Shown here one piece after another: positions 3,328 to 15,201 of a stretch of DNA of 17,874 bases. The stretch spans positions 1-17,874 of the forward strand of contig CAKREL010000048.1 in the NCBI GenBank assembly GCA_934317205.1. The letters are read 5' to 3'. Under the pieces are notes generated by a model, which was not told where the DNA came from, did not search any database, and saw only the letters and a list, made by a program, of their open reading frames with translations. Position 1 is the stretch's first letter, and the number at the start of each line of letters is the position of its first letter. This stretch comes from an uncultured Eubacterium sp. (GTDB lineage: Bacteria > Bacillota > Clostridia > Lachnospirales > Lachnospiraceae). A program made the position numbers and the translations under genes.

Positions 3328-4467
3328 TTAAAATCTGCTTAAAAATATCCTACCAGAAAATGCTACATGCGGCAATTCATAAAACTCGCAATCTTTTGGA
3401 GCGATTGGTCTGTATAACGGATCAGCTACAATAATTTTTGCATCTTTCAAAGCTTTTTCCATTGCCTCTTCTCCAAGGACAATGGCATCTTTTTCACCAA
3501 TCAGCTTTTCACATTCTTTTAGTGGACAGAACACGCGCGCTGAACGTCCATATACTTTCTCGATGCCTGCTGCCAGTGAACCCATAGTGACAGGTTCTCC
3601 AATCAGGGTGATTTCGGCATTTTTCTGCATGCGTTCCTTCAGATATACTGCTTCTGGAATAAACGCACCGGATAGCTGCTCTATCGCATTTTCCATCTTC
3701 TTTGAAATATCCTCTGCCAGCCACTCATTTGGTGTTCCGATCACATATGGTGTTCCGAACTTTTCCTGAAGTACTTTTGCTGCCCGCAGCCCAACGGCAG
3801 ACACTACCAGATTGACCTCTGCGCTTGCTGCCATTTGCAATGTCTCCAAAGAATCGCCCATCGCCCAGGTAGATAATACATTCCAACCATATTTGTGCAG
3901 GTTTTCTTTCAGCAGATTTACATTTTTCTGCGGTCCGAAGTCTAACGGGGTTACACCCAGCAAGTTCACACTTCGTCTAAATCTGATTTTCGGTTTCTGT
4001 ATAGCATTCTTTGTATCCGCTTCTTCTGTGAATCGCTTTGCGATTTCCTCCAGTGCAATACCTGCGCCATATATATAATCATGCATGCCGTTTGTTGGCA
4101 CAGCAAATGTCGGGATCCCGGTTTCTGTCTCAATCACTCTTGCAATCGCCGGAAAATCGGTTCCATTCATAAAGGGAATCGGTGAACCTGCCAATGCTAT
4201 GAATTTGGGATGTAATTCCCGCGCCGCATGCTCAATATCATCAATGAATTTCCGGTCATTTCCCATAATGGCATCAATTTCTGTCAGCCCTGAGATAAAG
4301 ATCAGGCTGTCCTGATCATACCAGCGGATTTCATCATGCGTATTATAAGTAGAGTTACAACCGGAAGGGTCGTGCATCACTGTCATTCCGCCAAGCTCGT
4401 ACAATGCAGAACAGACACCAGACACATCTGCCGTATAAATTGGTATGATTCGATATGATTGTCTCAT
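3328..4467 (-). CDS. Nitrogenase component 1-like subunit, NifK-type (module 1, B1)
   Basis: This 379-residue Oxidored_nitro-family protein is shorter than true NifK (about 500). It aligns by eye with the NifK N-terminus: SGVCSALYELGG, then HDPSGC (C37, the place of NifK Cys95), then GLTEIDAIMGNDRKFIDDI, which corresponds to the NifK/NifE 'TE.D.VFGG...L' element. C19 occupies the place of NifK Cys70. The third P-cluster cysteine is missing; the region reads LAGSPIPFMNGTDF. A second Rossmann-like half follows, ending AFSGRIF, a tail shared with B2 (AVSGR). The ATG at 4467 overlaps the A1 stop as ATGA, showing tight translational coupling; an upstream in-frame ATG at 4488 is less likely. It is the probable partner of A1 in an A2B2-type complex receiving electrons from nifH-like 1. 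It is not a dinitrogenase subunit, and its substrate is unknown. Confidence 0.85.
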   Translation of the reverse strand: MRQSYRIIPIYTADVSGVCSALYELGGMTVMHDPSGCNSTYNTHDEIRWYDQDSLIFISGLTEIDAIMGNDRKFIDDIEHAARELHPKFIALAGSPIPFMNGTDFPAIARVIETETGIPTFAVPTNGMHDYIYGAGIALEEIAKRFTEEADTKNAIQKPKIRFRRSVNLLGVTPLDFGPQKNVNLLKENLHKYGWNVLSTWAMGDSLETLQMAASAEVNLVVSAVGLRAAKVLQEKFGTPYVIGTPNEWLAEDISKKMENAIEQLSGAFIPEAVYLKERMQKNAEITLIGEPVTMGSLAAGIEKVYGRSARVFCPLKECEKLIGEKDAIVLGEEAMEKALKDAKIIVADPLYRPIAPKDCEFYELPHVAFSGRIFLSRF

Positions 4468-5801
4468 AGGCAGCACTCGCACCCCCATCCTTTTTGTACT
4501 ACAAGTTTTTCTGTATCTTTTTCCTCACGATACGCTTCCATCATCAATTCTGCTGTTCTACGGATACCGTCAAATCCATACAGGCCTTCCCCCTGCACCA
4601 GATTTACAAAATGACGGCTGCGACTAAAATATGCTGCTTTTTGTCCGATAGCAAGTACTTCCTCTTCGCCGCCTCTTGGCAATACACGCATTTTAACCTG
4701 AATTGTGGCGATCAGTTCCAATTCCGGTGCATATTTCTGCAGCCAGTCAAATGCTGCTTTTTCCTCCGGGCTGATTCCGTCCAGATACACTGCCTTTACG
4801 TTAAACCCATGGGTCAAAAGCAGTTTTGCCAGTCCCAATGGTCTCGGATGATACAGATAATCCAGCGTGATTGGCATATCCCCGATCAATGCTTTCGCTT
4901 TTGCCAAAACTTCCTCACAGGCAGCACGTTCCACATCCAGTGTTTCCCTGCTCAGTTCTGGAATTCCCAAGGCATCCGTCAGCTGCTTTAACTGTTGCTC
5001 GATTTCTTCATAATCAAAGCTTCCCGGCAAATACAGATGCGCACGGTGCAAGCGACGCGCCTGTGTCTCCATACCGTATTTTCCCGCCGGGTAAATGTCC
5101 AGAAACAATCGGCCCTTACTCATATCCTGCAAATCCTGCCATGTTTCACAGGCTGGAAGTTCTCTTACAGTATAACCATATCGTCTCAATAAGCGCTTGA
5201 TATCACTGCTTTCATCCAGTACAAAATCACTGCCGAATACCGATACCGTTTTTTCATCTGCTTCACACTCCGGCAAAGGATCATACATGGCTTTTCGCAG
5301 CTTCTGATCCGGCGTCAGACCATGTTTTTGCATGATTGGATCCATATAACAGCGAACAAAACAAATATCCGGGAAACGGCGTTCCAATTCGTCATAAATA
5401 TAAGTCAGATTGCTTCCCACAAAATGATGCAGACATACCGTAAATAGGAGCACTGCCTTCGGATGATCCCCTCGCTTGTTCAGTACATCTGTCACACCCT
5501 CGATCGTGATGTCCTCTAAATTGCCGTTTAAAACATGTTGTTCTTCCACAATGACAAAAGAAAAACGATCTGCCGCATTCATTTCTGCCGCTGTCAGTAC
5601 AACACCGCGCATACAGTTGTCCGCACAGACATAGATTTGAATTGCTTCTGGTACCAGCATTCCGGTATGTACAATATTCCAATTACCGTGAACCGGAGAA
5701 TTATACTCTAATTCAGACGCAAACGGTGCAGGAAAACATGCATCTTTGATTTTTACCACAGCATCTTTTGAATCTGCTGTTTCCCCTACTCGCTGCAACA
5801 T
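4464..5801 (-). CDS. Nitrogenase component 1-like subunit, NifD-type (module 1, A1)
   Basis: This is a 445-residue member of the Oxidored_nitro family. Candidate cluster cysteines are C22 (KDACFPAP), C59 and C63 (VCADNCMRGVV), and C123 (LLFTVCLHHFVGSN, the place of the NifD Cys154 'CP.GLIGDD' loop, here followed by two histidines). These match the three P-cluster cysteine positions of NifD. VEEQHVLNGNLEDI corresponds to the 'E.D.IFGG...L' element. The FeMo-cofactor Cys275/His442 pattern is not evident. The extreme C-terminus is GCECCL, a cysteine-rich tail absent from A2. The ATG directly follows the nifH-like 1 stop (TAGATG, zero gap) with GGAGG 8 bases upstream. The neighbours make it the catalytic or scaffold core of module 1. 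It could be a reductase in the style of BchN or CfbD, or a cofactor-assembly protein in the style of NifE. Confidence 0.85.
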   Translation of the reverse strand: MLQRVGETADSKDAVVKIKDACFPAPFASELEYNSPVHGNWNIVHTGMLVPEAIQIYVCADNCMRGVVLTAAEMNAADRFSFVIVEEQHVLNGNLEDITIEGVTDVLNKRGDHPKAVLLFTVCLHHFVGSNLTYIYDELERRFPDICFVRCYMDPIMQKHGLTPDQKLRKAMYDPLPECEADEKTVSVFGSDFVLDESSDIKRLLRRYGYTVRELPACETWQDLQDMSKGRLFLDIYPAGKYGMETQARRLHRAHLYLPGSFDYEEIEQQLKQLTDALGIPELSRETLDVERAACEEVLAKAKALIGDMPITLDYLYHPRPLGLAKLLLTHGFNVKAVYLDGISPEEKAAFDWLQKYAPELELIATIQVKMRVLPRGGEEEVLAIGQKAAYFSRSRHFVNLVQGEGLYGFDGIRRTAELMMEAYREEKDTEKLVVQKGWGCECCL

Positions 5802-14434: not shown

Positions 14435-14439
14435 CTGCC

Positions 14440-15201
14440 TTATGCATTTTCCTCTTCTTTTAATAATAATTCTGCCAGTTCAAAGAAACATTTGCTGATC
14501 TCAGAATCCGGATCACCCTCGATCACTGTTTTTCCCTGATCTTCCCAACGGATAATTTCATCGCTTCGCGGAACCTCTCCGACGATCGGCACACCGATTT
14601 TTTCCGAAAATGCCTGTACTTTTTCCGTCTCATTCTCCACATTTCGATGGTTCAGTACGATACCAAATACCCGGGCATAACTGCGATCTTCAAAGTTACG
14701 CACTGCACTGGAAATATTGTTTGCTGCGTACAGTGCCATTTTTTCTCCGGACGTAACGATCAGAACTTTCTCTGCATAGCCCTCACGGATCGGTGCTGCG
14801 AAACCACCGCAGACTACATCACCCAATACGTCATACAAAACTACATCCGGTTTGTAATGTTCAAATAAATCCATATCTTCCAGAAGCTGAAATGTCGCAA
14901 TAATGCCACGGCCAGCACAGCCAAGTCCCGGTGTCGGTCCACCGGTCTCGATACAGAGGATACCACCGTACCCCTCCTTCGAAATCTGTGCCAGTTCATC
15001 CGGCTCTTCATCCTCTTCCCTCATGTAATTCATTACCGGACGCAGCGGCTCTCCACCAAGCAGATTAATTGTCGAATCCGCTTTCGGATCACAACCGATC
15101 TGAATGACACGTTTTCCCATATTTGCAAAAGCGGCTGCCAGATTGGAAGTCACTGTAGACTTCCCGATGCCGCCCTTTCCATAAATTGCTACTTTTAACA
15201 T
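14440..15201 (-). CDS. Nitrogenase Fe-protein-like ATPase reductase (module 2, NifH/BchL/CfbC family)
   Basis: This 253-residue paralogue of nifH-like 1 has the same complete set of motifs: P-loop GKGGIGKST (8-16), GCDPKADST, cluster ligands C95 (GLGCAGRGI) and C131 (DVVCGGF), switch II DVLGD and R98. It differs by an acidic segment (MREEDEEPDELAQ, about 60-72) and a lysine/glutamate-rich C-terminus (ELLLKEEENA). It is the first gene of the long operon, with AGGAGG upstream of the ATG at 15201. A separate reductase for each component-1 pair suggests the two modules do not share electron donors, or work on different steps. Family membership is certain; a nitrogen-fixing role is not supported. 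Confidence 0.93.
   Translation of the reverse strand: MLKVAIYGKGGIGKSTVTSNLAAAFANMGKRVIQIGCDPKADSTINLLGGEPLRPVMNYMREEDEEPDELAQISKEGYGGILCIETGGPTPGLGCAGRGIIATFQLLEDMDLFEHYKPDVVLYDVLGDVVCGGFAAPIREGYAEKVLIVTSGEKMALYAANNISSAVRNFEDRSYARVFGIVLNHRNVENETEKVQAFSEKIGVPIVGEVPRSDEIIRWEDQGKTVIEGDPDSEISKCFFELAELLLKEEENA

Follow-up and report, generated by a model that had tools for sequence, protein, structure and literature searches.

Nitrogenase-like gene sets enclosing hypCDEF in Clostridia: a candidate HydG-independent route to the H-cluster of [FeFe]-hydrogenases

Introduction

Maturation of [FeFe]-hydrogenases (HydA) follows a standard pathway through HydE, HydF and HydG, in which HydG makes an Fe(CO)2CN unit, normally from tyrosine. 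In the HypA-F pathway of [NiFe]-hydrogenases, HypF and HypE convert carbamoyl phosphate to cyanide and the HypC-HypD complex carries Fe(CN)2CO. Nitrogenase-type proteins can reduce cyanide and CO2, and NifD binds FeMo-co by Cys and His residues in its C-terminal half. Here we describe a gene cluster in which hypF, hypC, hypD and hypE lie between two nitrogenase-like gene sets, found on a stretch of 17,874 nucleotides from an uncultured Eubacterium sp. (GCA_934317205.1, contig CAKREL010000048.1, positions 1 to 17,874 of the forward strand), hereafter called the window. Comparison with related genomes suggests that this operon probably serves to mature the H-cluster of [FeFe]-hydrogenases without HydG.

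Two gaps have been described in acetogens. In the excerpts of Di Leonardo et al. 2022 (PMC9431212) used throughout this text, HydE and HydF with no HydG detected are reported for C. ljungdahlii, C. carboxidivorans, C. coskatii, C. ragsdalei and C. sp. AWRP. Four of these five, all but C. carboxidivorans, are also reported, like C. autoethanogenum, to have HypCDEF without HypAB. The authors see no straightforward explanation for this and propose either an atypical HydG, for which they suggest a candidate of ~450 residues, or that HydE/HydF act on free CO and CN; for the missing HypAB they propose other means of nickel insertion. According to the locus tags in these excerpts, the hyp genes run F-C-D-E in all eight species, as they do in the window, with a second HypCDE set in C. 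carboxidivorans, and the [FeFe]-hydrogenase HytABCDE1E2 is stated to have been purified from C. autoethanogenum. An excerpt of PMC11736057 reports that synthetic [Fe2(SH)2(CN)2(CO)4] permits maturation without HydG and HydE, so that another source of the Fe-CO-CN unit would be chemically acceptable. In full-text searches of the openly licensed PMC literature, no title or abstract opening linked nitrogenase-like proteins to H-cluster maturation or to HypCDEF, and the part of the main text available from a C. autoethanogenum transposon-insertion study (PMC9004356) makes no mention of the cluster genes.

Results

Gene content of the cluster

Eleven genes, each intact at its expected coordinates, occupy the minus strand of the window in the order nifH1-D1-K1-hypF-hypC-hypD-hypE-TM1266-nifH2-D2-K2. 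D1/K1 and D2/K2 are our names for the component-1-like subunits of set 1 and set 2. Cut-offs for the Hyp and TM1266 proteins are those of NCBIfam curated profiles, and all four component-1-like proteins exceed the PF00148 gathering score of 28.6. Alignments indicate that the true starts of D1 and K1 are probably at 14358 and 13073, the ends used below.

14440..15201, minus strand: nifH1, NifH-like ATP-dependent reductase of set 1 (PF00142, 301 bits; 316 bits against the nifH equivalog cut-off of 394)
13078..14358, minus strand: D1, nitrogenase component-1-like subunit of set 1 (PF00148, 101 bits; open reading frame (ORF) opens at 14379)
12036..13073, minus strand: K1, second component-1-like subunit of set 1 (PF00148, 57 bits; ORF opens at 13229)
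9579..12020, minus strand: hypF, carbamoyltransferase of Fe(CN)2CO synthesis (TIGR00143, 735 bits, cut-off 466)
9347..9556, minus strand: hypC, Fe(CN)2CO carrier/chaperone (TIGR00074, 63 bits, cut-off 48)
8292..9347, minus strand: hypD, Fe(CN)2CO scaffold (TIGR00075, 376 bits, cut-off 193)
7204..8211, minus strand: hypE, dehydratase (TIGR02124, 429 bits, cut-off 252; C-terminus PRIC with the usual Cys)
6569..6844, minus strand: TM1266-family protein (TIGR03959, 109 bits, cut-off 60.8; solved homolog 2nzc)
5802..6572, minus strand: nifH2, NifH-like reductase of set 2 (PF00142, 301 bits)
4464..5801, minus strand: D2, component-1-like subunit of set 2, common to all variants of the cluster (PF00148, 40 bits; C-terminal GCECCL tail)
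3328..4488, minus strand: K2, second component-1-like subunit of set 2 (PF00148, 100 bits)

A sequence-only reading of the window had described two complete nitrogenase-like sets and intact hypF, hypC, hypD and hypE in one minus-strand series, which the coordinates and profile scores bear out. It had also listed what the window lacks, and among the 19 ORFs that we scanned there were indeed no [NiFe]-hydrogenase subunits, HypA, HypB, maturation protease, NifB or standard NifDK/NifEN. The TM1266 ORF had been overlooked. This small protein is tied to [FeFe]-hydrogenase systems (TIGR03959 is described as 'iron-only hydrogenase system putative regulator'), and its presence was the first pointer towards an [FeFe]-hydrogenase.

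HypC, HypD, HypE and HypF all score over their curated cut-offs, making the Fe(CN)2CO synthesis set complete. The nitrogenase-like proteins belong to the nitrogenase superfamily in a group IV-like manner, as PF00142 reductases with PF00148 partners, and none of D1, K1, D2 and K2 reached the cut-off of a named subfamily. NifE was the best-scoring named family for D1, K1 and K2, at 35-68 bits vs a cut-off of 505, while the best NifD score was 35 of the 654 bits needed and the best NifH score 322 of 394, below the equivalog level. Scores of the window proteins against the curated BchB/N/Y and CfbD profiles (DPOR, COR and CfbCD) were all far under the cut-offs. We therefore rejected a true nitrogenase, NifEN, DPOR or CfbCD identity. 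Two NifH-D-K-like sets in one operon, with D1, K1 and K2 nearest to NifE, recall NifEN/NifDK; the low NifE scores and the absence of NifB from the window set the cluster apart. The top PDB match of D2 (29 bits) was 9d9u/9fmg, deposited as 'Nitrogenase', which we take to be MarHDK. The cluster resembles MarHDK and other group IV sets in combining NifH with diverged D and K subunits in anaerobes; however, the similarity is weak, and the cluster is linked to hyp and hydEF rather than to sulfur salvage.

Conservation of the cluster

A search of genome contigs with D1 returned 11 loci, including those of Eubacterium ramulus ATCC 29099 (97% identity), E. ramulus 21, Roseburia faecis M72 and Blautia sp. 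MSJ-9, together with several Clostridia metagenome-assembled genomes (MAGs) and one Atopobiaceae MAG, in which D1 is fused to K1. All eleven genes stand in one order in 8/8 loci of sufficient length (L001-L007 and L010); the remaining 3/11 are short and agree as far as their sequence reaches. The sequence-only reading had named a gene order not conserved across species as grounds for giving up its proposal, and the order is conserved. Since D1 is 52-97% identical among the relatives with conserved order and the flanking genes vary, the grouping of these genes is more than chance.

With the genomes from the class-wide sample described below, we counted 25 cluster genomes in total: 21 with D1 (11 from the contig search, of which some are fragmentary, and 10 new ones from the class sample) and 4 with set 2 but without Hyp genes and set 1. 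We refer to the full cluster as type A and to the latter as type B. Full-length NifH (>280 bits) was restricted to cluster genes in the first 11 genomes. There was one full-length NifH in the whole genome of G011, and the clusters of six class genomes (G069, G146, G169, G211, G304 and G322) hold a single NifH, which in every case falls in the NifH1 clade, indicating that one reductase can serve both sets. G221 was rejected as a single-NifH genome and removed from that count, its NifH2 being fused to D2 in a protein of 698 residues (L082 10709-12805, minus strand).

Hyp genes and [NiFe]-hydrogenases

As an alternative, the sequence-only reading had allowed that the Hyp proteins serve a [NiFe]-hydrogenase encoded elsewhere and merely share the operon. 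The [NiFe] large-subunit profile PF00374 gave a match in 1/11 cluster genomes, a partial one in G011, and a [NiFe] large subunit as recipient was thus not found in the other ten; a [NiFe]-hydrogenase always present in the host genome, which that reading had held would count against its proposal, was not what we saw. HypD was single in nine of these genomes, present twice in G011, where the second hypD adjoins the [NiFe] large-subunit match, and not seen in G008, a partial MAG whose contig breaks off inside hypF. Eight of the nine single copies are on the cluster contig, and in the fragmented G009 HypD is on another small contig. In the 10 further type-A genomes HypD was single and in-cluster in 10/10.

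The Hyp proteins of the cluster are therefore mostly without a [NiFe]-hydrogenase to serve, a conclusion supported by these counts, and we rejected the shared-operon explanation, which was already refuted for most of these genomes. We consider it highly improbable overall. The partial match in G011 speaks for it, as does the [NiFe]-hydrogenase reported for C. autoethanogenum in the excerpts of PMC9431212; against it stand the second hypD of G011, the HypA/HypB not found in five acetogens with HypCDEF (same excerpts) and the linkage of hyp to nitrogenase-like genes kept across the class. The HypC-F proteins thus match the HypA-F pathway in being complete and differ from it in the window without HypA/HypB, the genomes usually without [NiFe]-hydrogenase and the position of the hyp genes between nitrogenase-like sets. 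Given this constant linkage, the HypCD product is likely to be used jointly with the nitrogenase-like proteins.

HydA, HydE, HydF and HydG in cluster genomes

The [FeFe]-hydrogenase domain PF02906 was found in 11/11 cluster genomes, most having several matches of >200 bits. HydG over cut-off was found in 0/11 of these genomes, with a positive T. maritima control in the same search, and in 0/14 of the further ones (0/25 overall). Of the HydG near-matches, five stronger ones were fetched and the three scanned (E. ramulus ATCC 29099, R. faecis and Blautia) proved to be ThiH at 514-518 bits; a hidden HydG was thereby rejected for these three.

HydF, on the other hand, was over cut-off in 9/11 first-set genomes and 14/14 further ones (23/25 in total). 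A tblastn search of the fetched loci of the same nine first-set HydF genomes found HydE in all nine, and five of these scored 551-595 bits with TIGR03956 (cut-off 255). The other two genomes, G008 and G010, gave no HydE-like weak match to the HydG profile, though that profile picks up HydE in the other nine.

These genes are often part of the cluster itself. hydF is in-cluster in 13/25 genomes (G005, G006, G007, G009, G011, G069, G146, G169, G211, G221, G304, G322 and G239) and hydE in G080. K2 is followed in G006 by hydF (559 bits) and then hydE (587 bits), each overlapping the preceding gene by 4 bp; the K2-hydF-hydE arrangement recurs in G005, G009 and, across a contig break, G007, and G011 has the order D2-K2-hydF-hydE. 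In G169 a complete HydA gene lies directly upstream of nifH1. HydE, HydF and TM1266 are thus shared with HydE-HydF-HydG maturation, whereas HydG is absent in 25/25 and the CN/CO source would be HypCDEF and nitrogenase-like proteins, not tyrosine.

Class-wide distribution of D2 and HydG

We searched the same draw of 371 genomes from the class of G001 (G001 included) four times, for D1, D2, HydG and HydF. D1 orthologs were present in 11/371 (at least 553 bits; next best 218) and D2 orthologs in 15/371 (at least 459 bits; next best 352). HydG (TIGR03955) was over cut-off in 231/371, many weaker ones being among these, and HydF was found in 250/371 at E ≤ 1e−90, of which 249 were over cut-off. The D2 genomes had HydF in 15/15 and HydG in 0/15; the other HydF genomes had HydG in 222/235. 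The exclusion among HydF genomes was significant (Fisher: P = 8e−17, kinship ignored), a value inflated by kinship among the D2 genomes. After collapsing D2 to 10 lineages (60% identity), the chance of all being without HydG at the overall rate of 28/250 is 3e−10, and after collapsing to 5 lineages (50% identity) it is 2e−5.

It could be argued that the cluster has another role and that these genomes do encode a HydG, one too diverged for the profile to detect. The ~450-residue atypical candidate suggested for acetogens in PMC9431212 would fit this, as would 13 HydF-positive, HydG-negative genomes without D2; however, TIGR03955 took in many weaker proteins over its cut-off, the best near-matches scanned in cluster genomes were ThiH, and the HypCDEF CN/CO set shares an operon with hydF in many relatives. 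We regard a divergent HydG as very unlikely.

Seven of the 13 D2-less genomes were fetched, and four of these (G171, G294, G345 and G374) carry TM1266 grouped with hydE and/or hydF, HydG not being among the neighbours (loci L094, L096, L099 and L100).

A proposed HydG substitute and the evidence against it

HydG exclusion, hydE/hydF linkage, HydA beside the cluster in G169 and the TM1266 gene together lead us to the reading that the operon probably stands in for HydG. On the basis of linkage and exclusion we infer that HypCDEF feeds H-cluster assembly in its place. The sequence-only reading had supposed that Fe(CN)2CO is delivered to or processed by a nitrogenase-superfamily protein, giving a cofactor unlike FeMo-co or the NiFe site. 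Joint use is made likely by the linkage; a final cofactor unlike any known is not supported, because hydE/hydF within the operon, an adjoining HydA gene in one genome, the TM1266 gene and HydG exclusion point to the known H-cluster made by a new route. The acetogen gaps fit as well. We found D2 in C. ljungdahlii, D1 in C. ragsdalei and C. drakei, and both in Clostridium sp. JNZ X4-2.

Several points weigh against a HydG substitute. The 13 D2-less genomes make up 13/28 of those with HydF and without HydG, and either these genomes are incomplete or a third route exists; HydF is itself missing from 9/231 HydG-positive genomes, so that dropout of similar size is to be expected from incomplete genomes, and gene absences were counted in genomes without completeness values. 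Blautia sp. MSJ-9 (G010), the chief counter-example, has an intact cluster with no HydF over cut-off and no HydE-like match, and its draft genome holds a single, sensor-like PF02906 protein, which may reflect an assembly gap, a relic or another function; the partial MAG G008 is likewise without HydF. HypCD gives Fe(CN)2CO, with two CN on its iron against one per iron in the H-cluster, so the route presupposes a so far hypothetical ligand change. Finally, the excerpts of PMC9431212 name a HydG, by motif only, in C. autoethanogenum, C. drakei and C. scatologenes, of which C. drakei carries D1, and describe very low transcripts for the C. autoethanogenum [NiFe]-hydrogenase, a possible Hyp client.

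Some of these observations would also suit a new metalloenzyme, in which the nitrogenase-like enzyme keeps a HypCDEF-fed Fe-CN-CO cofactor of its own and does other chemistry, HydE/HydF may have been recruited to it and the loss of HydG is a side effect. The Blautia sp. MSJ-9 cluster retained without HydF is in line with this, and so are distant importer-linked nifH-D-K sets in HydG-positive genomes (see below), which indicate that part of the family does something else. Strict HydG exclusion together with HydF in 23/25 cluster genomes argues against it, as do the HydA gene adjoining the cluster in G169 and the position of the cluster D2 in a clade apart from the importer-linked sets, and we judge a new metalloenzyme unlikely.

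Type B and importer-linked sets

Set 2 occurs without set 1 in four genomes (G080, G153, G239 and G381), and HypD was found in 0/4 of these. Their operons carry FecCD-type importer genes (PF01497, PF01032 and PF00005). In G153 and G381 the importer ATPase is fused to a TM1266 domain (PF21699), there is a separate TM1266 gene, and the neighbours of HydF are non-hydrogenase genes.

L071 12725-13783, minus strand: ABC-importer ATPase-TM1266 (PF21699) fusion, by domain matches
L072 14265-15320, minus strand: ABC-importer ATPase-TM1266 (PF21699) fusion, by domain matches

The fusion hints that TM1266 may not be merely a regulator. Similar importers, 38-58% identical to those of type B, adjoin more distant nifH-D-K sets in the HydG-positive genomes G083, G159 and G190, less clearly in G280, and also in G152, which has neither HydF nor HydG; loci L089-L093 hold this importer-linked family.

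In trees, D2 of types A and B formed one clade (18 rows, support 100/100), as did K2 (100/100), separate from the importer-linked sets, whose D subunits are 28-30% identical to D2. The NifH1 clade had 100/100 support and NifH2 alone only 92/89, and G280 and set 2 of G366 were long branches of uncertain placement. The residue counts that follow omit G280 altogether and, for D2/K2, the G366 row. Cys63/78 and Cys123/138 (D2/D1 numbering) are conserved in the D subunits and Cys44/68 in the K subunits; these resemble what we take to be the interface-cluster ligands of NifDK, alpha Cys88, alpha Cys154 and beta Cys95. His45, Cys59, His125 and tail Cys441 of D2 are kept in 13/13 type-A and 4/4 type-B rows, whereas the four importer-linked rows are without His45, His125 and Cys441, and have Cys at the Cys59 position in 2/4. 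Among 13 D1 rows aligned with one another, the C-terminal half of D1 has no conserved Cys/His, and no FeMo-co-like ligand pair is apparent.

The importer-linked sets are the nearest relatives of set 2 found. Set 2 probably originated in a system of that kind and was later enlisted for H-cluster assembly; what type B imports may be supplied internally, in type A, by Hyp and set 1. The nitrogenase-like sets could instead reduce imported small molecules or macrocycles, in the manner of MarHDK, DPOR or CfbCD, with the hydrogenase link one of neighbourhood only. The FecCD-type importers of type-B and sister sets would agree with this, as that family also carries B12, haem and siderophores, and MarHDK-like group IV-A genes lie near sulfur genes in anaerobes, according to an excerpt of PMC10418091. 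Such a reductase is a poor prospect, as improbable in our view as a divergent HydG: scores lie far under the DPOR and CfbCD cut-offs, and only the D2 clade shows HydG exclusion and linkage to hydEF.

Leader element, repeat insertion and neighbouring genes

A conserved element lies upstream of nifH1, and a longer spacer interrupts the operon between hypE and the TM1266 gene.

15440..15474, minus strand: leader element, ACTCTGACGGCAAGG-short hairpin-TCCGAGCGGGAATAGT, conserved upstream of nifH1
6845-7203, minus strand: spacer of 359 bp, a strain-specific repeat insertion with partial copies elsewhere

The leader precedes nifH1 in most type-A clusters (L001-L007, L009, L010, L078 and L083-L086) and hypC in G322 and G169 (loci L076 and L077). 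Run over the 906 kb of fetched loci, a covariance model from 17 leaders hit 18 sites, every one of them at such a cluster, its own 17 sequences matching by construction; L008 gave a marginal match (E = 0.93). The leader was not found in the fetched loci of G011, G132, G221, G329 and G366, nor in those of all four type-B genomes, and had no match in Rfam. Pairing support was modest, with 3/8 pairs changed on both sides, a number reached by 14/500 shuffles, and other measures were weaker. The element is possibly a cis-regulatory RNA.

Between hypE and the TM1266 gene, L001 and L002 have 18 bp and L003 has 138 bp, vs 359 bp in the window. Copies of the repeat are found at 6845-7203 and 17775-17872 of the window, at 9959-10206 of L003 and at 6095-6205 of L002; the repeat is inserted at different operon junctions in different E. 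ramulus-like strains. We rejected a functional role for the spacer, which is an insertion and probably plays no part in the pathway.

Three flanking genes were annotated in the family scan of the window ORFs.

Upstream of the cluster: MerR-type regulator gene
16648-17559, plus strand: gene upstream of the cluster with a weak chalcone-isomerase N-terminal match, under gathering score
Downstream of the cluster: deaminase gene

Eubacterium ramulus degrades flavonoids, and the weak chalcone-isomerase match would fit an E. ramulus-like host.

Discussion

All parts of the cluster belong to known families, and they appear to make up a pathway of no known kind. Going by these families, HypF and HypE would turn carbamoyl phosphate into cyanide and HypC-HypD would hold Fe(CN)2CO. 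In our model this unit would then be passed to D1K1 rather than to a [NiFe] large subunit. NifH would drive ATP-dependent electrons into D1K1 through its Cys-ligated interface Fe-S cluster, and D1K1 would rework the ligands towards one CN and more CO per iron; chemically, this would call for removal or replacement of one CN and for addition of CO. The two sets could plausibly carry out this ligand change, given the cyanide and CO2 reduction by nitrogenase-type proteins. D2K2, the one component that every variant has, would make or hand over an Fe-CO-CN synthon, or its dimer, for HydE and HydF, after which the standard pathway to HydA would follow. The assignment of steps to the two sets, with set 1 taking over from HypCD and set 2 delivering to HydE/HydF, is a guess.

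More tentatively, there may be two HydG-free solutions built around a NifH-D2-K2 core, a possibility that we hold to be rather doubtful. Type A would make a CN/CO-bearing iron unit in-house with HypCDEF and the second nitrogenase-like set, and type B would take up, by way of its FecCD-type ABC importer, either an iron precursor bearing cyanide/CO or a fragment salvaged from an H-cluster. If type-B import is true, H-cluster precursors would be shared goods in anaerobic communities, like cobalamin.

If the operon does replace HydG, three subjects handled separately until now, the Hyp pathway, nitrogenase-like reductases and H-cluster assembly, would be brought together. As far as the searches of the open PMC literature reach, HypCDEF is not known to act outside [NiFe]-hydrogenases, nor the nitrogenase superfamily in hydrogenase maturation, and both roles would be firsts. 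Replacement of HydG by the operon would also give one explanation for two gaps in industrial acetogens, the lack of a detectable HydG and the HypCDEF without HypAB, as reported in the excerpts of PMC9431212. Among the organisms concerned are Eubacterium ramulus, Roseburia faecis and other inhabitants of the gut, where H2 turnover matters to the whole community.

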